Shown here: piece by piece, positions 25,758-35,117 of the stretch
How the letters are laid out: each line of letters opens with the position of its first letter
Position numbering within the stretch: the first letter of the stretch is position 1
From: Mycobacterium barrassiae
GTDB lineage: Bacteria > Actinomycetota > Actinomycetes > Mycobacteriales > Mycobacteriaceae
Direction of reading: 5' to 3'
Length of the DNA stretch: 64,000 bases
Assembly (NCBI RefSeq): GCF_025822765.1
Contig: NZ_JACKUK010000044.1
Coordinates: forward strand, 63,985-127,984
The notes under the pieces: generated by a model
What the model was told of the DNA's origin: nothing
The model's database searches: none
The model's input: the letters and a program-made list of their open reading frames with translations, nothing else
Translations under genes and position numbers: made by a program

Positions 25758-25830
25758 ACTCCTCCTTGAGGTTTGTTGGACCGAGGTGCGACCAGGCTCT
25801 TCGCTATCTAGCCGCACCTCGGTCCGGGTG

Positions 25831-25916
25831 CGGAGGATAGGGGATTTGAACCCCTGAGGGCTATTAACCCAACCCGCGTTCCAGGCGAGCGCCATAGGCC
25901 ACTAGGCGAATCCTCC
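25831..25916 (-). tRNA. serT: tRNA-Ser (anticodon GGA)
   Basis: The 86-nt minus-strand sequence folds as a tRNA with a long variable arm. The acceptor stem is GGAGGAT paired with ATCCTCC, the anticodon stem CTCGC/GCGGG closes the loop CTGGAAC (anticodon GGA, reading UCC), and the T-arm is GGGGTTCAAATCCCC. The long variable arm (TTGGGTTAATAGCCCTC) is typical of Ser. CCA is not encoded. Confidence 0.95.
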
Positions 25917-25943: not shown

Positions 25944-27428
<1,485 letters not shown>

Positions 27429-27461: not shown

Positions 27462-28220
27462 CTAGGACAGCTTCCTGATGACCTTGCTGCTCACCATGGC
27501 CACTGAACCGACCAGGCTCCGGCGGTAGTCGTCGCACGTTGAGCACGACTCGATATGGCGCGCAACGCGTTTCCGTGTCAGAACCGTGAACTGTCCGTCC
27601 CAGTCCGACAGAGCTACGGCGAGCTCAGGGCATCCGTGCTGTGCGGCACGGCGGGCCACCAGAAGGGCGCCCAGCGAGCGCTCAAAGGTCTGGCGCAGCC
27701 GCTGCAGGAGTTTCTTCGCGCAGTCGTGGCTGACGCCGAGGGCGTCGGCGAGTTCGGGTCCGGCCAGATCCCGGCGGTAGGCCAGTTCCAGGACGTCACG
27801 GTCGCGCTCGGACAATCCGCCCGCTGCCGCAACGACGAGGCGCGCCAGCTCGTTTCGTGCGGTCAGGGTGAACGGCCCGGGGCCGACGAATGCGGCGTCG
27901 GGAATCTGGTCGAGCGCCGGCTCACGTCGACGCTCGTGTAGTTTGCGCAGTGCGGCGCGACGGGCGATGGCGTACAGCCACGGCCGCAGCTTGTCCGGCT
28001 CACGCAGCTTCGGCAGATCGGCGGCCGCGATGCAGAAGACGTCCTGCACGCAGTCGGCCGCAGTGTGGTGGTCGCGGACCAACGTCACGCAATAGTCGTG
28101 CAGCCGCGGTGCGTAGCGGTGGTAGATGGCGCCCAATGCCACCCGGTCCCCGGCGGCTGCAGCCGTGGCGAGCTGCGCATCACTGATGACTCGTACCGGG
28201 GGTGTGGTGGCGGGTGTCAT
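27462..28220 (-). CDS. ECF sigma factor with C-terminal zinc-finger-like tail, linked to RiPP cluster
   Basis: A 252-aa RNA polymerase sigma factor. Region 2 is about residues 16-95 (AAGDRVALGAIYHRYAPRL and WLYAIARRAALRKL); region 4 is about 125-185 (LSERDRDVLELAYRRDLAG, then the LGVSHDCAKKLL recognition helix). An extra 65 residues end with RHIESCSTCDDYR, an H-x3-C-x2-C motif (H222, C226, C229) like that of zinc-binding anti-sigma factors. This suggests a built-in sensor or inhibitor instead of a separate anti-sigma gene. ATG 28220 follows AAAGGACG. It is the last gene on the strand of the RiPP cluster, behind a terminator-like hairpin, and the probable reader of the three shared precursor promoters (inference). 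Confidence 0.82.
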   Translation of the reverse strand: MTPATTPPVRVISDAQLATAAAAGDRVALGAIYHRYAPRLHDYCVTLVRDHHTAADCVQDVFCIAAADLPKLREPDKLRPWLYAIARRAALRKLHERRREPALDQIPDAAFVGPGPFTLTARNELARLVVAAAGGLSERDRDVLELAYRRDLAGPELADALGVSHDCAKKLLQRLRQTFERSLGALLVARRAAQHGCPELAVALSDWDGQFTVLTRKRVARHIESCSTCDDYRRSLVGSVAMVSSKVIRKLS

Positions 28221-28335
28221 TGAAAAATCGTCCTTTTTCGGCGCGAAATTCGTAATCGCCCCGACGCCAGATTCCACTTGCCGACGGGAAGGGTTTCCTG
28301 TCCGTAGGGTAAGGCAGGCACCCACACCCAGTACG

Positions 28336-28393
28336 CACACAGCCGACCGCCCCATGACCGAATCGAGTCGGTGATGGGGCGGTCGGTGGTGTG
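28336..28393 (-). terminator. Hairpin between precursor A1 and the sigma gene
   Basis: A long inverted repeat: CCGACCGCCCCAT at 28343-28355 pairs with ATGGGGCGGTCGG at 28374-28386. After a 2-nt internal loop, CACAC at 28336-28340 pairs with GTGTG at 28389-28393. It follows the A1 stop by about 35 bp. It has no U-tract, as is usual for actinobacterial terminators, and would separate A1 from the sigma gene. The rest of the 28221-28428 gap holds the sigma promoter region. Confidence 0.7.
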
Positions 28394-28428
28394 TGGCCCG
28401 GCTACGTCGGGTGTAGCCGCGCCGCGGC

Positions 28429-28608
28429 CTACTTCGTTTTGTGGGTGGTGCGGGTTCCGGTGCCGTTACCCGTGCCGGTGCCCGTGCCGTTGCCGGTGCC
28501 GGTTCCGGTGCCGTTGCCCTTGCCGCCATGGGCCAGGCTCAGCTCGTCGGCGGTCAGGGTGCGGATGCTCTGGCGGCGCAGGGCCAGCTTGTCGCGGTTG
28601 ATGTTCAT
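28429..28608 (-). CDS. RiPP precursor peptide A1, (Thr-Gly)n core
   Basis: A 59-aa precursor. The leader (residues 1-29) contains LALRRQSIRTLTADEL and ends AHGG, the double-Gly cleavage site for the C39 peptidase of the cluster's exporter. The 30-residue core is almost only Gly, Thr and Asn in GTGTGTGN repeats, with a basic end RTTHKTK. It has 11 Thr, no Ser and no Cys, so the dehydratase could convert many Thr to dehydrobutyrine, but lanthionine rings cannot form within it. ATG 28608 has a strong GGAGGAG site 7 nt upstream. It is preceded by a conserved promoter block (28652-28694) and isolated by hairpins on both sides. Confidence 0.88.
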   Translation of the reverse strand: MNINRDKLALRRQSIRTLTADELSLAHGGKGNGTGTGTGNGTGTGTGNGTGTRTTHKTK

Positions 28609-28651
28609 CGGTGTCTCCTCCTGGTGGGTGCGCGCCGCCCTGGTGGCGACG

Positions 28652-28694
28652 CTCATAGGTATGGGTGTCAAAACCCTTGGGAAGGGACACTTTT
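28652..28694 (-). promoter_or_regulatory. Conserved promoter-like block of precursor A1
   Basis: On the minus strand it begins AAAAGTGTCCC and ends ATACCTATGAG. It aligns without gaps over 43 bp with the blocks before A2 and A3. Common elements are AAANGYGTCCC, a second CC at positions 15-16, and TAMCC/TACC 19-20 bp further on. The ATG is 43 bp beyond the block. It is probably a -35/-10 pair for an alternative sigma factor. Confidence 0.7.
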
Positions 28695-28722
28695 TGAGTG
28701 AAGTGTGTTTCACCGCACGCGG

Positions 28723-28767
28723 AACACCGCCCCGCAACCTGGGTGCAGTCGGTTGCGGGGCGGTGTT
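28723..28767 (-). terminator. Perfect 17-bp-stem hairpin after precursor A2
   Basis: AACACCGCCCCGCAACC at 28723-28739 pairs perfectly with its complement at 28751-28767 across an 11-nt loop. It lies 32 bp past the A2 stop and 29 bp before the A1 promoter block. It therefore probably ends the A2 transcript, leaving A1 under its own promoter. Confidence 0.8.
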
Positions 28768-28798
28768 GTGGGGGCGAGTCGATGTGGTTAACGACCCA

Positions 28799-29044
28799 CT
28801 AGGCGATGGTGACCGTCGGCTTCGGCAGATCGGTCGACGTCAGCGTGGGCTGGCGGGTACCCGTGGTGCGCACCGTGGTGTGCTTTGTCGTCTTGGTCGG
28901 GCCGGTGCCGGTCCCTGTTCCCGTGCCGTTGCCGCCGCCGGTGCCGTTACCGCCCTCGCCGCCGTGGGCCATCATCAGCTCGTCGGCGGTCAGGGTGCGG
29001 ATGCTCTGCCGGCGCAGGGCCAGCTTGTGCTGCTTGGTGTTCAT
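28799..29044 (-). CDS. RiPP precursor peptide A2, Thr-rich core
   Basis: An 81-aa precursor whose residues 7-29 (KLALRRQSIRTLTADEL then MMAHGG) are almost identical to the A1 leader. The core is 52 residues: a Gly/Asn/Thr repeat part (GGNGTGGGNGTGTGTGTG), then KTTKHTTVRTTGTRQ, and a non-repetitive tail ending PKPTVTIA. It has 18 Thr, one Ser and no Cys. A GGAGGG site lies 9 nt before ATG 29044. The promoter block (29084-29126) begins at the last base of the dehydratase stop codon. The extra C-terminal tail makes its product different from A1. Confidence 0.88.
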   Translation of the reverse strand: MNTKQHKLALRRQSIRTLTADELMMAHGGEGGNGTGGGNGTGTGTGTGPTKTTKHTTVRTTGTRQPTLTSTDLPKPTVTIA

Positions 29045-29083
29045 TTCGGTTCCCTCCTGTGGTCGCTGCCCGGATGGGCCGCG

Positions 29084-29126
29084 TCTACAGGTAAGAGCGC
29101 CAACTGCTCTGGGCGGGGACGCTTTT
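29084..29126 (-). promoter_or_regulatory. Conserved promoter-like block of precursor A2
   Basis: On the minus strand it begins AAAAGCGTCCCCGCCC and ends TTACCTGTAGA, ungapped with the A1 and A3 blocks. It lies entirely between the dehydratase stop and A2, so the precursor can be made in excess of the enzymes. Confidence 0.7.
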
Positions 29127-32100
29127 CAGGTGCGCGGCGCCCTTGCGATCTGGCTGGCGTAATGGCGGTCGAGGAAACTCAGCAGGATGAGTTCGTGGGT
29201 GCGGGCCGCCGAACGCAACAGCCGCACGGCGTTGAGGTGGCTGAAGCTGTGCAACAGCGAGGAATAGGACTGCGTCAGTTCACCACGCGCCGAACGGTCC
29301 GCGAGCTCGACGAGCAAGGGTGCCAGTCGTTCCGATCGTCGCCTGAAGACGTCGCGTGCGGGTTCGTAGGCGTGGTCGTGGGTGTCGTCGAGCAGCGCCG
29401 TGATGTCCGCGCGTTCGGTACGCCACCGTTGTCCGATCCCGGGATCGAGGTTGGTCGCATTCGGGTACTCGGGCCGATAGCCCGCCGCGCCGCTCTTCGC
29501 CCACTCTCGGCGCTGCTGCATGTCCAGTCCCGCGTCCGCCAGCAGGCGGTCGGTGGCGTACAGGCCGAGTTTCCAGCGAGCCTCCGGCGCTGCCTCGCCG
29601 AAATCGCCGTCGAGCAGGCGGAGCACCTCGAGCACGGCGTCGCTGTCGGCCGCGTGGATCTGCTCTGCCAGTTCGATTCCGGCGTCGCCGCCGTAGCGCT
29701 CGACCTCGCGGTCGTAGGTGTCGGTCGACACCGTCCACACGGTCCCGTCGCCGAGGTGCGGCGCAAGCGCATCGGTGAGCGCCGGCAGGGCGTGCTCGCG
29801 CAGTGCGGCTGGGTCACCGTGCAGGCGCAGCCGCAGATGGTGGTCGGGATCGGCGTAGCGCAGGAAGAACCAGCGGTCGAGGCTTCCTGCGTCGCGCAGC
29901 TTGTTGATGGCGGGGCCGACGGCGTCGGTGAGGATGCGGTCCGCGGACGCGGTTCCGGTGTAGGCCTTGAGGTACAGCCATTCGCTGCCAGGCGTAAAGC
30001 TGCGTCGCACACCGGGTGCGCGCCATGGAGCCGGGGCCGGCGCGGGCTCGCCGCGACGGATGAAGGGCACGATGAACTCGTGGGCGAACCGCCCCTGCGG
30101 GCCGGTGGCGACCGCGCTCGACAGGACCTCCTCGATGACCGCCGCCGAACGACCGCGCAGCACCTTCGCCGCCGCCGCGGTCAGCGCCGGGCTTGCGGTG
30201 TCGACGTACAACCGGTTGTCGCCGTCGGTGATCAGAAGCTCGGTGGGCAGGCCACGGGCGGCGCTGACGGTCGCCCATCCGGCGACCGGGTCGGCTCCGG
30301 TGACCGCCTTGATCTCGGCGGCCGACAGCCGCCAGCGTGCCCGGGCCAGCACGAGCTTGCCTGCGGTGACGCGTGGCAGCGTCGGCGCGGATGACATTGC
30401 GCCCCAATCCCATGCGAGCCCGGCGGCCACTCCGTCGTTCTGCAGGGCGGCCAAGAACCGGTACACCCCGAAACCCCGCCACGCCGGATTGTGCGCGGTG
30501 GTCAGCCGCGGCCGGACTTCGGCGCCCAGTCGCGGGCTGTACAGCACGACCCGATCGCCGTCGAGACGCACGGTCAGTTCGTCGACGCTGATCTGGCGGT
30601 CCGCGGACGCACCCGAACGTCCCAGCAACACCAGCTCGTAGTCACGCAACAGCGGGCGGGCCAGGACGTTGCCGACCCGGCCCTCGGGGAGGTGGATGAT
30701 CTCGGCGAACACCACCCCGGGGGCGAGGGCCTCCTCGGCACGCAGGTGGTCCCGCACCGCGGCATGCAACCGGCCGTCGCCGTGGCAGAACCGCCCCAGC
30801 AGCTCTGCGCCTGAAGGGCCTGTGACGCTTTGGATTTCGACCGCGTCGTCCAGCAAGCTGCCGAAGACGGCCAAGGCGTCGGGCAGCGGCGGCGGTGTCG
30901 CCGAGGCGAGGCGGGTCACGGTGCCGGCGTCGAGTTCGAGGCTTTCGGCGCCGTTCTCGCGAGCGCGCATCACCAGATCGAGCAGTGTCGCGTCGCGCGC
31001 GGTAAACGCGTAATCGCCTGCGACGCCGCCCAAATCCATGCCCGCAAGCAAGGGGGACTCATCGGCGGCGGGATGCGGCGACCGGTCATAGCCGATCCCC
31101 ATCTCCTCGTCGAGGGCCTCCATCAGCGGCACCTCGCGGTCCTCGTAGCGGTTCGCGAAGTCGGCCTTGAACCGCGCCAATGCCGGGTCGCCGCCCTGAG
31201 GCGAGACGCGGTGCAGCACGTCGATCCCCTTCTCGAGCAGGTGCACGGCGTCGGGGCCCAGGGTCAGGCCCGAGCCGTTGCGGTGCAGGTCGACCTGGAC
31301 CGCCCGGGCGGTGTCGCCGCCGCCTGCCAGCTCGAGCAGGCTGGTGGCCACGCTGTCGTAGGCGCTCGGCGGGTTGCCGAGCCCGGCGGCGTCCAGCCGG
31401 CTGAGTTCCTCCGACACCCGGCTGAGGGTTTCCGACGTCGCGGCAAGCTCCGGCCCGCTCAGGCACGAGAGCACGTGCGCCAACGGCTCGGCGCCGGTCA
31501 CGGCGGGTTCGGCCACCGGGGTGAGCACGTGCGCCTCGACGAGAGCGTCGACGTATTCGCGTGCCTCGGCCAACTCGACGCCGGCCTCGGCCGCCACCGC
31601 CTCGGCGACCTTCTCGACCGAGCACCCGCCGGTGGCCGTGTCGAGCGCACACCGCAACGGCGCGTCGTCCTCGACCACGACCAGATGATGCGTGCGCCTG
31701 CCGTCGCGCAGCCGGCTCTCGATGAGTCGCAACGCACCCGCGGCGTGGTAGCGGCTGGAGTTGGGCTCGACCGCCATCGCGGGCCGCGTCGACGGATCCT
31801 TGAGCAGCCGCTCCACGAGCGTCGCCAGCACCTCGGTGTCGGGTCTGCTGTGCCGGGTGGTGCCCTCCGGGCCGTCGACCGTCAAGGCGGTGGTGTCCGC
31901 CACCGCCCCCAGCGCGCAGCCCGCGAAGAGCCCGAAAGGCGTTGCCCGGGTGCACATCCGGACCAGATATGCGGTTACCGACGCCGCGACCTTGTCATCG
32001 GGCTTGCCCTCGCCCAGGCGTTGCAGCAGCCCGGGCGACGCCAGGTGCAGCGCCTCACGTACGTCCGGGCGCTTCGACAGGATCTGCCAGTACTGCGAAT

Positions 32101-32185
32101 CGCTGCGCAGTCGATCCAGTTCCTCCATCGGGAGCAGCGGGGCGCGCATCACGAAGAATCCACTTGTGGTCAGTTGCGAATCCAT
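29126..32185 (-). CDS. Full-length LanB-type (class I) peptide dehydratase
   Basis: A 1019-aa enzyme with both NisB-like parts. The N-terminal glutamylation domain (about 1-730) starts FFVMRAPLLP, with Arg14 where NisB has its essential Arg, and has YLVRMCTRATPFGLFAG with Arg76 and Arg80. The C-terminal SpaB_C elimination domain (about 735-1010) has EWLYLKAYTG, DRWFFLRYADPDHHLRLRL and SFSHLNAVRLL, whose His983 aligns with the NisB elimination His. It should transfer Glu from Glu-tRNA to Thr/Ser of the precursors and eliminate it to give dehydrobutyrine/dehydroalanine. ATG 32185 has GGAGG and lies 9 bp after the exporter stop. No LanC gene is present in the window. Confidence 0.88.
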   Translation of the reverse strand: MDSQLTTSGFFVMRAPLLPMEELDRLRSDSQYWQILSKRPDVREALHLASPGLLQRLGEGKPDDKVAASVTAYLVRMCTRATPFGLFAGCALGAVADTTALTVDGPEGTTRHSRPDTEVLATLVERLLKDPSTRPAMAVEPNSSRYHAAGALRLIESRLRDGRRTHHLVVVEDDAPLRCALDTATGGCSVEKVAEAVAAEAGVELAEAREYVDALVEAHVLTPVAEPAVTGAEPLAHVLSCLSGPELAATSETLSRVSEELSRLDAAGLGNPPSAYDSVATSLLELAGGGDTARAVQVDLHRNGSGLTLGPDAVHLLEKGIDVLHRVSPQGGDPALARFKADFANRYEDREVPLMEALDEEMGIGYDRSPHPAADESPLLAGMDLGGVAGDYAFTARDATLLDLVMRARENGAESLELDAGTVTRLASATPPPLPDALAVFGSLLDDAVEIQSVTGPSGAELLGRFCHGDGRLHAAVRDHLRAEEALAPGVVFAEIIHLPEGRVGNVLARPLLRDYELVLLGRSGASADRQISVDELTVRLDGDRVVLYSPRLGAEVRPRLTTAHNPAWRGFGVYRFLAALQNDGVAAGLAWDWGAMSSAPTLPRVTAGKLVLARARWRLSAAEIKAVTGADPVAGWATVSAARGLPTELLITDGDNRLYVDTASPALTAAAAKVLRGRSAAVIEEVLSSAVATGPQGRFAHEFIVPFIRRGEPAPAPAPWRAPGVRRSFTPGSEWLYLKAYTGTASADRILTDAVGPAINKLRDAGSLDRWFFLRYADPDHHLRLRLHGDPAALREHALPALTDALAPHLGDGTVWTVSTDTYDREVERYGGDAGIELAEQIHAADSDAVLEVLRLLDGDFGEAAPEARWKLGLYATDRLLADAGLDMQQRREWAKSGAAGYRPEYPNATNLDPGIGQRWRTERADITALLDDTHDHAYEPARDVFRRRSERLAPLLVELADRSARGELTQSYSSLLHSFSHLNAVRLLRSAARTHELILLSFLDRHYASQIARAPRT

Positions 32186-32194
32186 GTCGTCCTC

Positions 32195-34351
32195 CTAACG
32201 CCCCGGCTCGGCGACGAGCTGGCCGGCCACCAGCTGTGCGTAGTGCCCGCCTGCGGCCATCAGCTCGCGATGGTGGCCGACCTCGACGACGCGACCCGCG
32301 TCCATGACGACGATGCAGTCGGCGTCGACGACCGTCGCCAGCCGATGCGCGACAAGCACGACGGTGCAGCCGAGCCGGGCGATGTTGGCGTGCACCTTCG
32401 CCTCGGTGACGGTGTCGAGATTGCTGGTGGCCTCGTCGAGGAGCAGCAGCTGCGGCTGCGTGGCGAGTGCGCGGGCCAGCGCCAGTCGTTGGCGTTGCCC
32501 ACCGGACAATGAGGCGCCCGCGTCGACAAGCGGGGTGTCCCAACCCATTGGCATCGCGTGGATGTCCTCCGCGATGCCGGCCTGCTCGGCGGCGACCTCG
32601 AGCCGCTCCAGCGGCAGGCTCGGATCACCGAGGGACAGATTGTCGCGGATCGACAGCCCGAAGATGTACGGGTCCTGGGTCACCACCCCGATCTGCGAGC
32701 GCACGCTGCGTGGGTGCATGGTCGCCAGGTCGATGCCGTCGAGCAGGACCCGCCCCGCACCGGGTGCGTACAGCCCCAGCAGCAGCCGGCCCAGTGTGGA
32801 CTTGCCCGAACCGGAGCGTCCGACGACGGCGAGTACCTGGCCCGGCCGCACGTCGAGGTCGACGCTGTCGATGGCCGGCGGGCCGTGGGGTGCGTACCGG
32901 AAGGTGAGGCCCTCGGCACGCAGCGCGCCGGTGAGTCGGGGAGCGTGCTGCAGGTTGCGACCTGCTACCTCGGTGGGTGTGTTGAACACGTCGTCGAGGC
33001 GGGCCATGTAGCTACCGAGCAGCTGAATCTGCAGGACGGTTCCGACGAGAACGCCGAGCGGCTCCAGGAATGCGGTGGACAGCGCGGCCAGAGCGAGCAT
33101 GGTGCCGAGTGAAAGCTGGCCGCTCCCAACCAGATATGCCCCGTACAGCAGCACCGCGATCGGGGAGAGTAGCGACAGCCCGTGCAGCGCCGTCTCGACG
33201 GCGGCGGACAAACGCCCGCGGCGCAACGAGACGTTCAGTTCCGCGACGAAAAGGTTGGTCCAGTGTGATACCGCTCGGCGCTCGGCTCCCGCGGCCTTCA
33301 GCGTCTCGACCGCGGAGAACATTTCGTAGGCGTAGGACTGCGAGCGGGCCTCGGTGGCCAGCGCCTCGCCCATCAAGTGCTGATTGCGTCGCCGCGCCGA
33401 CAACAGCACCACAACCTGCGCGACGCCAAGCGCGACCACCAGCAGAGCCAGCTGCGGCGACAGGACGAAGATCACAACCAGATACGCCGTGGCCAGCACG
33501 CCGTCGAGCAGAGCGGCGATCGTTCCGCTGGTGAGGATTTCGCGCACCGTGGCGTTGCTGCGCAGCCGCATCATCAAGTCGCCCGAGGAGCGTTTGAGAA
33601 AGAACGCGTAAGGCAGGTCCACCAGGTGTTCGAGGAAGCCCAGTGTCATCTCGACGTCGAGGCGGCTGCGCAACCGCAGCAGCAAGTGCGCCCGCAGGAA
33701 GGTGGCGAGCGCCGAGTAGCAGATCAGCGCGGCCATCACCGCCGCGACGATCCACAGCAGGCGGTCGTCGCCTGCGGGCACGATCTGGTCGACGATGACG
33801 CCGGTCAGGATCGGCACGGCCAGCGCCATCAGCCGCACCACTACCGACGTGGCCAACACCTTGCCGATGCCGCGCGAGCGGGTCATCAGTCGTCGCGCAT
33901 GGTGGAACGCACCCGGGGGTTTGCTTCCGCCGGTACTGAACGACTCGCTGGGCTCCAGCATGATCGCCACACCGCTGTACAGGTCGCCGACCGCTTTCCA
34001 CGGCACCCGGTAGCGCCCCGCGGCGGGGTCGACGATCGTCACGCCGCGCCGTGATGTCGAATCCAAGACGACGAAGTGCGCGGCGCCCCAATGCAATACG
34101 GTCCCCCGGGGCAGGGCGCTCAGATCGTCGAGTTCGGTCGCCACCCCGCGGGCACGCAGCCCGTACGACGTGGCCGCCTCCGCCAGACGCAGCGCGTTCA
34201 CGCCGTCGCGTCCGGTGCCGGTGGCCGCATGCATCTCCGCCAGTGACACGTGGCGGCCGTGGTAGGCGAGCGCCATGCACATCGCGGCCGCGCCGCAATC
34301 GGCCATCTCGGCCTGCGCGATATACGGGATCGCGCGCCGTCGCGGGCTCAC
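32195..34351 (-). CDS. Peptidase-containing ABC exporter (C39 domain) for the RiPP
   Basis: A 718-aa PCAT-type transporter that cleaves double-Gly leaders and exports the peptide. The C39 peptidase domain (1-130) has Gln13 and Cys19 in QAEMADCGA, His92 in GAAHFVVLD and Asp108 in VDPAAGR, a complete triad. The membrane domain (about 165-450) has six hydrophobic helices. The ATPase domain has GRSGSGKST (521-529), LSGGQ (625-629) and LLLLDEA (645-651). The GTG start overlaps the stop of the upstream membrane-fusion-like gene (GTGA). Cleavage is expected after AHGG of all three precursors. Confidence 0.92.
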   Translation of the reverse strand: MSPRRRAIPYIAQAEMADCGAAAMCMALAYHGRHVSLAEMHAATGTGRDGVNALRLAEAATSYGLRARGVATELDDLSALPRGTVLHWGAAHFVVLDSTSRRGVTIVDPAAGRYRVPWKAVGDLYSGVAIMLEPSESFSTGGSKPPGAFHHARRLMTRSRGIGKVLATSVVVRLMALAVPILTGVIVDQIVPAGDDRLLWIVAAVMAALICYSALATFLRAHLLLRLRSRLDVEMTLGFLEHLVDLPYAFFLKRSSGDLMMRLRSNATVREILTSGTIAALLDGVLATAYLVVIFVLSPQLALLVVALGVAQVVVLLSARRRNQHLMGEALATEARSQSYAYEMFSAVETLKAAGAERRAVSHWTNLFVAELNVSLRRGRLSAAVETALHGLSLLSPIAVLLYGAYLVGSGQLSLGTMLALAALSTAFLEPLGVLVGTVLQIQLLGSYMARLDDVFNTPTEVAGRNLQHAPRLTGALRAEGLTFRYAPHGPPAIDSVDLDVRPGQVLAVVGRSGSGKSTLGRLLLGLYAPGAGRVLLDGIDLATMHPRSVRSQIGVVTQDPYIFGLSIRDNLSLGDPSLPLERLEVAAEQAGIAEDIHAMPMGWDTPLVDAGASLSGGQRQRLALARALATQPQLLLLDEATSNLDTVTEAKVHANIARLGCTVVLVAHRLATVVDADCIVVMDAGRVVEVGHHRELMAAGGHYAQLVAGQLVAEPGR

Positions 34352-34860
34352 CAGAACCTCGGCAGGAAGACGCTTATCAGCCGCTGCCGCGCGGCAGGAA
34401 CGAGAAGCTCACCGGCGGATACCGGGGCCGGCTGTTCCAGCCGGGCGGTCACGTCGGTCGCGGTGACGTCGACGACGACCGCGTCGGCCGTCGCACCCGA
34501 CGGGTCACGGAACTCGACCGTGGCGCCGGGGGCGGGCGGCGGACCCGCGGTGAGATCAGCCGTCACGATCGCCCCCTGCACCACCGCAGGTAACGGCGTG
34601 GACTGTTGGACGGTGATCGTGGCGGCGGCGACCGCGCCCCCGGTCAACAGCACCGCCAGCGCGATGAGGCCGGCGTCGATCCAGCCCGGGTTCTTGATCA
34701 GCTCGCCCGGCCGGGCGCCCGCCGACTGCCGGTCCCGCCAGGTCGCGCGGAACACCGACTCGTAGCGGACCTCGCCGTCAGCGACACCGTCGTCGGTCAC
34801 GACCTCACCCCCGGCCGAGGGTCGGGCAGCATCGAGATGCTCGGCCCCGTTTCTCGTCAC
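34348..34860 (-). CDS. Very short membrane-fusion-like (HlyD N-terminal type) protein
   Basis: A 170-aa protein with a cytoplasmic part of about 60 residues (including RATWRDRQ and PGELIKNPGW), one membrane helix (61-84, AGLIALAVLLTGGAVAAATITV) and an external part of about 85 residues resembling a single beta-barrel or lipoyl-like half. The segment before the helix resembles secretion proteins of NHLM/bacteriocin export systems. The long coiled-coil and second half of normal HlyD proteins are missing. In a mycobacterium it may be a minimal adaptor for the ABC exporter. GTG 34860 follows GGGAGCAG; it is translationally coupled to the exporter. Confidence 0.68.
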   Translation of the reverse strand: MTRNGAEHLDAARPSAGGEVVTDDGVADGEVRYESVFRATWRDRQSAGARPGELIKNPGWIDAGLIALAVLLTGGAVAAATITVQQSTPLPAVVQGAIVTADLTAGPPPAPGATVEFRDPSGATADAVVVDVTATDVTARLEQPAPVSAGELLVPAARQRLISVFLPRFW

Positions 34861-34904
34861 ATCTGCTCCCCAAAGTGTGGCTGCCGCACGATCGCGGCGT
34901 CCTG

Positions 34905-35039
34905 CTATTTCGTCCGGTTCGTCGTCCTGGTCGGAATACAGGTGCCGGTCTTGGCATTGGCACCGCCGTGGGCGATGCTCAGCTCGGCGGGGGTCAGCGC
35001 GCGAATGCTCTGACGGCGCAGCGACAGGCTGTTCTTCAT
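34905..35039 (-). CDS. RiPP precursor peptide A3, short core with one Cys
   Basis: A 44-aa precursor. The leader is residues 1-26 (LSLRRQSIRALTPAEL then SIAHGG), clearly the same as in A1 and A2. The 18-residue core ANAKTGTCIPTRTTNRTK has six Thr and one Cys. It is the only precursor able to form one (methyl)lanthionine ring, or a disulphide dimer, and it shares the basic Thr-rich ending (TRTTNRTK versus TRTTHKTK in A1). ATG 35039 follows GGAGGAG. It is the first gene of the long transcript that continues into the transport and dehydratase genes. Confidence 0.85.
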   Translation of the reverse strand: MKNSLSLRRQSIRALTPAELSIAHGGANAKTGTCIPTRTTNRTK

Positions 35040-35074
35040 CGGTCTCTCCTCCGGTCCGCCTGCTGTGGGCAGGT

Positions 35075-35117
35075 CTCACGGTTAGGAGCACCGACCGGGC
35101 CGGACGGGGACACATTT
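35075..35117 (-). promoter_or_regulatory. Conserved promoter-like block of precursor A3 and the main RiPP operon
   Basis: On the minus strand it begins AAATGTGTCCCCGTCC and ends CTAACCGTGAG, aligned without gaps with the A1 and A2 blocks. It is followed by a 35-nt leader to ATG 35039. It lies in the 145-bp gap to the divergent dnaX, so the two promoters are nearly back to back. Confidence 0.7.

Follow-up and report, generated by a model that had tools for sequence, protein, structure and literature searches.

A candidate cyclase-free cluster of class I lanthipeptide ancestry in Mycobacterium barrassiae and related mycobacteria

Genes of the cluster and their conservation

The window analyzed in this study, a stretch of 64,000 nucleotides of the Mycobacterium barrassiae genome (contig NZ_JACKUK010000044.1, positions 63,985 to 127,984), carries on its minus strand a cluster of seven genes (27462-35039) encoding three precursor peptides with a Gly-Gly leader, a LanB dehydratase, a C39 peptidase-ABC exporter, a small membrane protein, and a sigma factor (Table 1). 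An initial annotation, made from the sequence alone, had described these genes as a cluster for a ribosomally synthesized and post-translationally modified peptide (RiPP) with a dehydratase and no LanC cyclase. The positions and common strand of the seven genes were borne out, as were the three precursors of one leader type and the sigma factor, which were recovered by a leader model and by PF04542 and TIGR02937, respectively. The dehydratase, said to be complete, indeed matched both PF04738 and PF14028 in one protein, and the leader-cleaving exporter matched PF03412, PF00664, and PF00005.

Table 1. Features of the cluster (window coordinates)
Feature	Position	Strand	Description
ECF-type (extracytoplasmic function) sigma factor	27462..28220	-	252 aa; PF04542, E 1.4e-12; TIGR02937, 56.2 bits (cut-off 42.9)
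Hairpin after precursor A	28336..28393	-	29-nt arms, 86% complementary; RNA fold 28325-28428, z-score -6.25; resembles a terminator or stability element, with no T run
Precursor A	28429..28608	-	59 aa; 30-aa core KGNGTGTGTGNGTGTGTGNGTGTRTTHKTK; 11 Thr, 0 Cys
ECF-like promoter motif, precursor A	28658..28690	-	GYGTCMC-N18-CYCNTAMC
Hairpin after precursor B	28714..28776	-	26-nt arms, 85% complementary; RNA fold 28705-28798, z-score -4.57
Precursor B	28799..29044	-	81 aa; 52-aa core; 18 Thr, 1 Ser, 0 Cys
ECF-like promoter motif, precursor B	29090..29122	-	GYGTCMC-N18-CYCNTAMC
LanB dehydratase, full length	29126..32185	-	1019 aa; glutamylation and elimination domains
C39 peptidase-ABC exporter	32195..34351	-	718 aa; PF03412, PF00664, PF00005
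Small membrane protein	about 34348..34860	-	One transmembrane helix and beta-barrel domain; start codon uncertain
Precursor C	34905..35039	-	44 aa; 18-aa core ANAKTGTCIPTRTTNRTK; 6 Thr, 1 Cys
ECF-like promoter motif, precursor C	35081..35113	-	GYGTCMC-N18-CYCNTAMC

A LanB-like match at E ≤ 1e-5 was found in 17 of 297 genomes of the genus. Eleven of them, including that of M. barrassiae, contain an orthologue (at least 67% identity; in genome G287 it consists of two contig-end pieces), and six a distant LanB (29-36%). An additional search added M. nebraskense, bringing the number of mycobacterial genomes with an orthologue to 12, and two Nocardiaceae. The search of the genus for the leader next to LanB, which the initial annotation had proposed, showed that the same 11 of 297 genomes carry both: the leader model matched exactly the genomes with a LanB orthologue and none of the remaining 286. 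As the model was built from 24 leaders of these very loci, only its absence elsewhere is independent evidence. This distribution shows that the cluster as observed is real and not a chance assembly. The NCBI class I leader model lant_leader_L1a matched 10 of 25 aligned precursor rows (23 mycobacterial and 2 Nocardiaceae; best E 0.003), and precursor A, represented by its N-terminal 35 residues, reached 14.2 bits, which is below the cut-off of 22.

The LanB protein, the only one in the M. barrassiae genome, matches PF04738 with residues 39-667 (E 2.6e-137) and PF14028 with residues 736-1009 (E 3e-63; model positions 1-255 of 255). Eight of nine residues reported to be essential could be mapped onto it, and all eight are invariant in 13 aligned orthologues, so that the loss of active-site residues, named by the initial annotation as an argument against dehydration, was not found. 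The elimination residues R787 and R830 are invariant among the aligned orthologues, as is H983, a likely third one, and in the predicted structure the fold of the elimination domain resembles MadB, MibB, and NisB, which ranked above pyridine synthases. The reading frames are open in relatives, and four pairwise comparisons with the window gave ratios of nonsynonymous to synonymous substitutions (dN/dS) of 0.145, 0.156, 0.218, and 0.193, values that are rough at a dS of 0.63-0.94 and indicate that LanB is under purifying selection.

In the exporter, residues C19, H92, D108, K517, D639, E640, and H669 are identical in all 14 aligned rows. For the small membrane protein, any one Pfam family matched at most 2 of 13 aligned rows (best DUF6703, E 0.0024). 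Its AlphaFold model (mean predicted local distance difference test score 66) consists of one transmembrane helix and a beta barrel and gave no fold match at E ≤ 0.001; with no adaptor family matched either, the label "minimal adaptor" given to this protein is unproven.

As claimed before, the cores of precursors A and B contain no Cys, and that of precursor C contains one. Among the mycobacterial precursors found, 23 of 25 are Cys-free, the exceptions being precursor C and one precursor of locus L026 with one Cys each; the 25 comprise the 24 of the main count and one unlinked precursor in genome G290. The latter (contig 21, L102, within an open reading frame [ORF] at 1360-1722) combines the common leader with a Gly-Thr array and a tail rich in proline; it is located on a different contig from LanB, and the adjoining ORF resembles an ECF sigma factor by eye. 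Gly-Thr arrays are present in most mycobacterial precursors, NPSGG repeats in L024 and L028, and Gly-Ser arrays in G287. Between loci L027 and L034, core A with its stop codon (33 codons) differs by eight synonymous and no amino acid changes, which indicates that the protein sequence of the Gly-Thr array is conserved and not a DNA repeat.

A sigma factor orthologue was present at the locus in 7 of the 12 mycobacterial genomes (the window, L023, L026, L027, L030, L033, and L034). It was not found in the fetched loci L024, L028, L029, and L035, to which the search was confined, nor on the G287 fragments, where for two rows its absence is unsure. A His/Cys motif at the C terminus of the protein weakly resembles a zf-HC2 zinc finger (E 0.015, below the cut-off). 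The motif GYGTCMC-N18-CYCNTAMC, derived from the three window sites with M widened after viewing relatives, is matched exactly at three places in the genome, starting 74-82 nt before each precursor start, and the reversed pattern at none. With a stricter window-only consensus, 11 of 12 precursors of the other sigma-positive loci had a site with at most 3 mismatches (shuffle P ≤ 0.056), and the twelfth lies immediately behind another precursor. Where no sigma gene was found in the locus, 0 of 11 precursors had the motif, the best sites showing 4-6 mismatches. This co-occurrence, which the initial annotation had not described, suggests that the precursor genes are under the control of the sigma factor. 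Judging by the gene spacing, the promoter of precursor C probably also serves an operon with the genes for the membrane protein, C39 exporter, and LanB. No strong hairpin follows precursor C, unlike precursors A and B.

Absence of LanC in mycobacteria and its presence in relatives

The absence of LanC, which had been claimed from the window, held for the whole M. barrassiae genome (5.9 Mb, 99.98% complete), in which LANC_like (PF05147) had no match at E ≤ 0.001. In none of the 12 mycobacterial genomes with a LanB orthologue was LanC encoded beside it, and 11 of them had no LANC_like match at all; completeness is lower for G041 (89%) and G287 (84%) and was not given for M. nebraskense. In the twelfth, G254, a LanC-like domain is encoded away from LanB and joined to a kinase domain, which places it in a different class. 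The same model does work in the genus, since it detected LanC beside a distant LanB in the mycobacteria G066 and G052. No cyclase or transferase recurs among the genes conserved at the mycobacterial loci, and the search for a cyclase co-conserved across the 12 genomes, suggested with the initial annotation, was negative.

Close relatives with LanC, which the initial annotation could not have shown, were found in the Nocardiaceae. In Smaragdicoccus niigatensis and the metagenome-assembled genome Nocardiaceae bin.485 (L025 and L032), lanC overlaps the lanB stop codon (ATGA), and the single precursor has the same leader and the core RAFSDHGSGCATSDRCATYACPRSSSSW with three Cys. Identity to the window proteins is 70-71% for LanB, 50-51% for the small membrane protein, and 79% for the C39 exporter; no sigma gene was found in these two loci, and no promoter motif. 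These clusters thus share the set of LanB, C39 exporter, membrane protein, and leader with M. barrassiae and in addition contain lanC and a precursor with three Cys. Four loci of more distant relatives, with related C39 exporters (50-56%), encode LanC immediately ahead of LanB. The 23 candidate precursors there (1 + 14 + 3 + 5), picked by a leader regular expression and not checked one by one, all contain Cys, a single one in the case of the G531 candidate. Three of these loci (L073, L074, and L075, from a single genus within the same class) encode LanC, LanB, and a C39 exporter with 14, 3, and 5 candidates, respectively. No convincing precursor was recognized in five other LanC-positive loci, whose LanBs have identities near 30%. 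Cys is therefore present in 2 of 25 mycobacterial precursors versus both precursors of the LanC-positive Nocardiaceae and 23 of 23 outgroup candidates. For G303, which belongs to the same order, 14 LANC_like matches were counted.

Chromosomal sites and ancestry of the cluster

In the window, L023, and L033, the cluster is located between an aspartate-aminotransferase-like gene and a second gene, which we take to be aspC and dnaX. A second insertion site is common to L027, L030, and L034, and the remaining loci share neither site, L026 having one neighboring ORF family in common with L029 and another with L035. In all five examined relatives that carry the cluster at another location, the flanking genes lie side by side (38-95 nt between matches); in the sixth relative examined, G277, the cluster sits between them. 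Only the genes for the small membrane protein, C39 exporter, LanB, the precursors, and the sigma factor (the latter in 7 genomes) recur across different sites. After these, the most widely shared ORF family is that of short-chain dehydrogenases, present at 4 of 16 loci and at varying distance. Several chromosomal sites together with empty sites indicate that the cluster is mobile. A plasmid search found no close relative. Genes for the small signal recognition particle RNA (26017-26113) and tRNA-Ser (25830-25916) lie just upstream of the aspartate-aminotransferase-like gene.

In free trees, the LanC-positive Nocardiaceae pair was nested among LanC-negative rows. A single mycobacterial clade was not rejected by the approximately unbiased test (P = 0.31 for LanB, 0.195 for C39, 0.154 for both, and 0.209 with four outgroups), so that one loss, several losses, or a regain of LanC fit the trees and cannot be told apart. 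In searches of the order and class, seven genomes besides that of M. barrassiae had a strong LanB match, and because LanC is adjacent in all seven, its presence may be ancestral. This is countered by the mycobacteria G063, G276, G144, and G148, whose distant LanB has no LanC beside it. Such a distant second LanB (about 29-36% identical) is encoded at L041:7852-10806, L042:8051-10999, and L043:7582-10605 (984, 982, and 1007 aa, respectively), and also in G144 (L044). Three of the four genomes lack any LANC_like match, and G063 has an unlinked one. In L041 an EspA/EspE-family protein is encoded near the distant LanB; a similar-sized ORF of L042 has no Pfam match.

Proposed product and comparison with known systems

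The genetic side of the initial interpretation, i.e., no LanC, no co-conserved cyclase, and retained active sites, was upheld, the adaptor label was not. We assign a probability of roughly 0.6 to the reading that this is a mobile RiPP cluster of class I lanthipeptide ancestry that lacks a cyclase and exports linear, cationic peptides rich in dehydrobutyrine (Dhb). The sigma factor would recognize one promoter before each precursor gene. LanB would then bind the common leader, esterify core Thr residues (Ser in some relatives) with glutamate from Glu-tRNA, and eliminate glutamate to give Dhb or dehydroalanine (Dha), as its conserved catalytic residues and the chemistry of NisB and MadB suggest. 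For the latter, glutamylation dependent on Glu-tRNA and subsequent elimination are described in PMC7296275 and PMC12241602. As LanC is absent and two of the three cores lack Cys, ring closure would not follow, and the C39 exporter would cut after Gly-Gly and release the linear peptides, with (Gly-Dhb)n arrays in the case of A and B. Linear, Dhb-rich peptides are thus the most likely product deduced from the genes. Since the A and B pair is frequent and the tails are cationic, we would guess at a role as inter-bacterial or cell-surface peptides. A broader proposal has in our view an even chance of being correct, namely that these clusters form a RiPP family based on LanB alone, whose cores could turn into repeats once the cyclase had been lost, with a sigma regulon dedicated to the export of linear peptides that are poly(Gly-Dhb) or rich in Dha; no product of this kind is described in the literature passages and listings available.

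It is conceivable, if rather improbable, that the dehydrated peptide is an intermediate to which a thiol is added by an unlinked enzyme or non-enzymatically, giving a thioether-decorated or singly ringed product. Dhb is electrophilic, mycothiol is abundant in mycobacteria, and precursor C and the L026 precursor each have a single Cys with Thr nearby, but no cyclase or transferase is co-conserved and the other 23 mycobacterial precursors offer no Cys. We give still less credence to a different activity of LanB, i.e., stable glutamylation of Thr or Ser, amino acid addition, or a cycloaddition by the C-terminal domain. Peptide aminoacyl-tRNA ligases (PEARLs), which are LanB-like, lack an elimination domain, whereas the M. 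barrassiae LanB has both domains at full length, and its invariant elimination residues and the ranking of MadB, MibB, and NisB above pyridine synthases argue for elimination. That a class I lanthipeptide cluster which lost lanC is decaying and makes nothing useful would agree with the absence of LanC and with the sigma gene not being found in some loci; it is very unlikely in view of the dN/dS values of 0.15-0.22, the invariant active sites, the open lanB frames, and the Gly-Thr arrays and promoters conserved in several species and at several sites. Least likely is an ordinary lanthipeptide system with LanC supplied from elsewhere in the genome, as only G254 has an unlinked LanC-like domain, a kinase-fused one, and two of the three cores in the window offer no Cys for cyclization; at the sensitivity of PF05147 this is refuted for 11 of the 12 genomes, which leaves room for a non-homologous cyclase.

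The cluster shares with class I lanthipeptide systems a full LanB with glutamylation and elimination domains but has neither a LanC encoded with LanB nor, apart from the one residue in precursor C, Cys in its cores, and it seems to be a LanC-less derivative of such clusters. PMC7268733 describes class I lanthipeptides that have LxLxKx5L/Gly-Gly leaders and are associated with a C39 protease. Those clusters likewise combine a full LanB, a related leader ending in GG, and a C39 protease encoded in the cluster, but in the window no LanC and mostly Cys-free cores are found, so that no lanthionine is expected. The work began from LanC hits, and a survey seeded in this way would miss clusters such as the one described here.

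Linaridins of the cypemycin type are linear peptides rich in Dhb and in this respect resemble the product proposed here. Their dehydration involves kinases and lyases with very low similarity to those of lanthipeptides, according to PMC10880069, whereas the window encodes a LanB as dehydratase, with no further enzyme recurring at the locus (linaridin enzymes were not searched for). To our knowledge, LanB-type dehydration without LanC is also found in goadsporin and thiopeptide systems. The two LanB domains of the window are, however, joined in one protein, and the recurring locus genes include no YcaO or azole enzyme or pyridine synthase, a genome-wide YcaO search not having been made. In goadsporin and thiopeptide biosynthesis, a YcaO first forms the azoles and a split LanB acts thereafter, as PMC10676384 describes. 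Titles and abstract beginnings, with most subscription papers outside the coverage, named no LanC-less system with a full-length LanB in mycobacteria.

Clusters of this type mark a blind spot, as they cannot be seen in surveys seeded on LanC. Related clusters with about 70% LanB identity carry either LanC and Cys or neither (two single-Cys exceptions among 25 precursors) and in this way form a natural experiment. They make it testable how a class I dehydratase acts without its partner, whether such enzymes make long runs of dehydroamino acids, and how cores evolve after ring closure has been lost.
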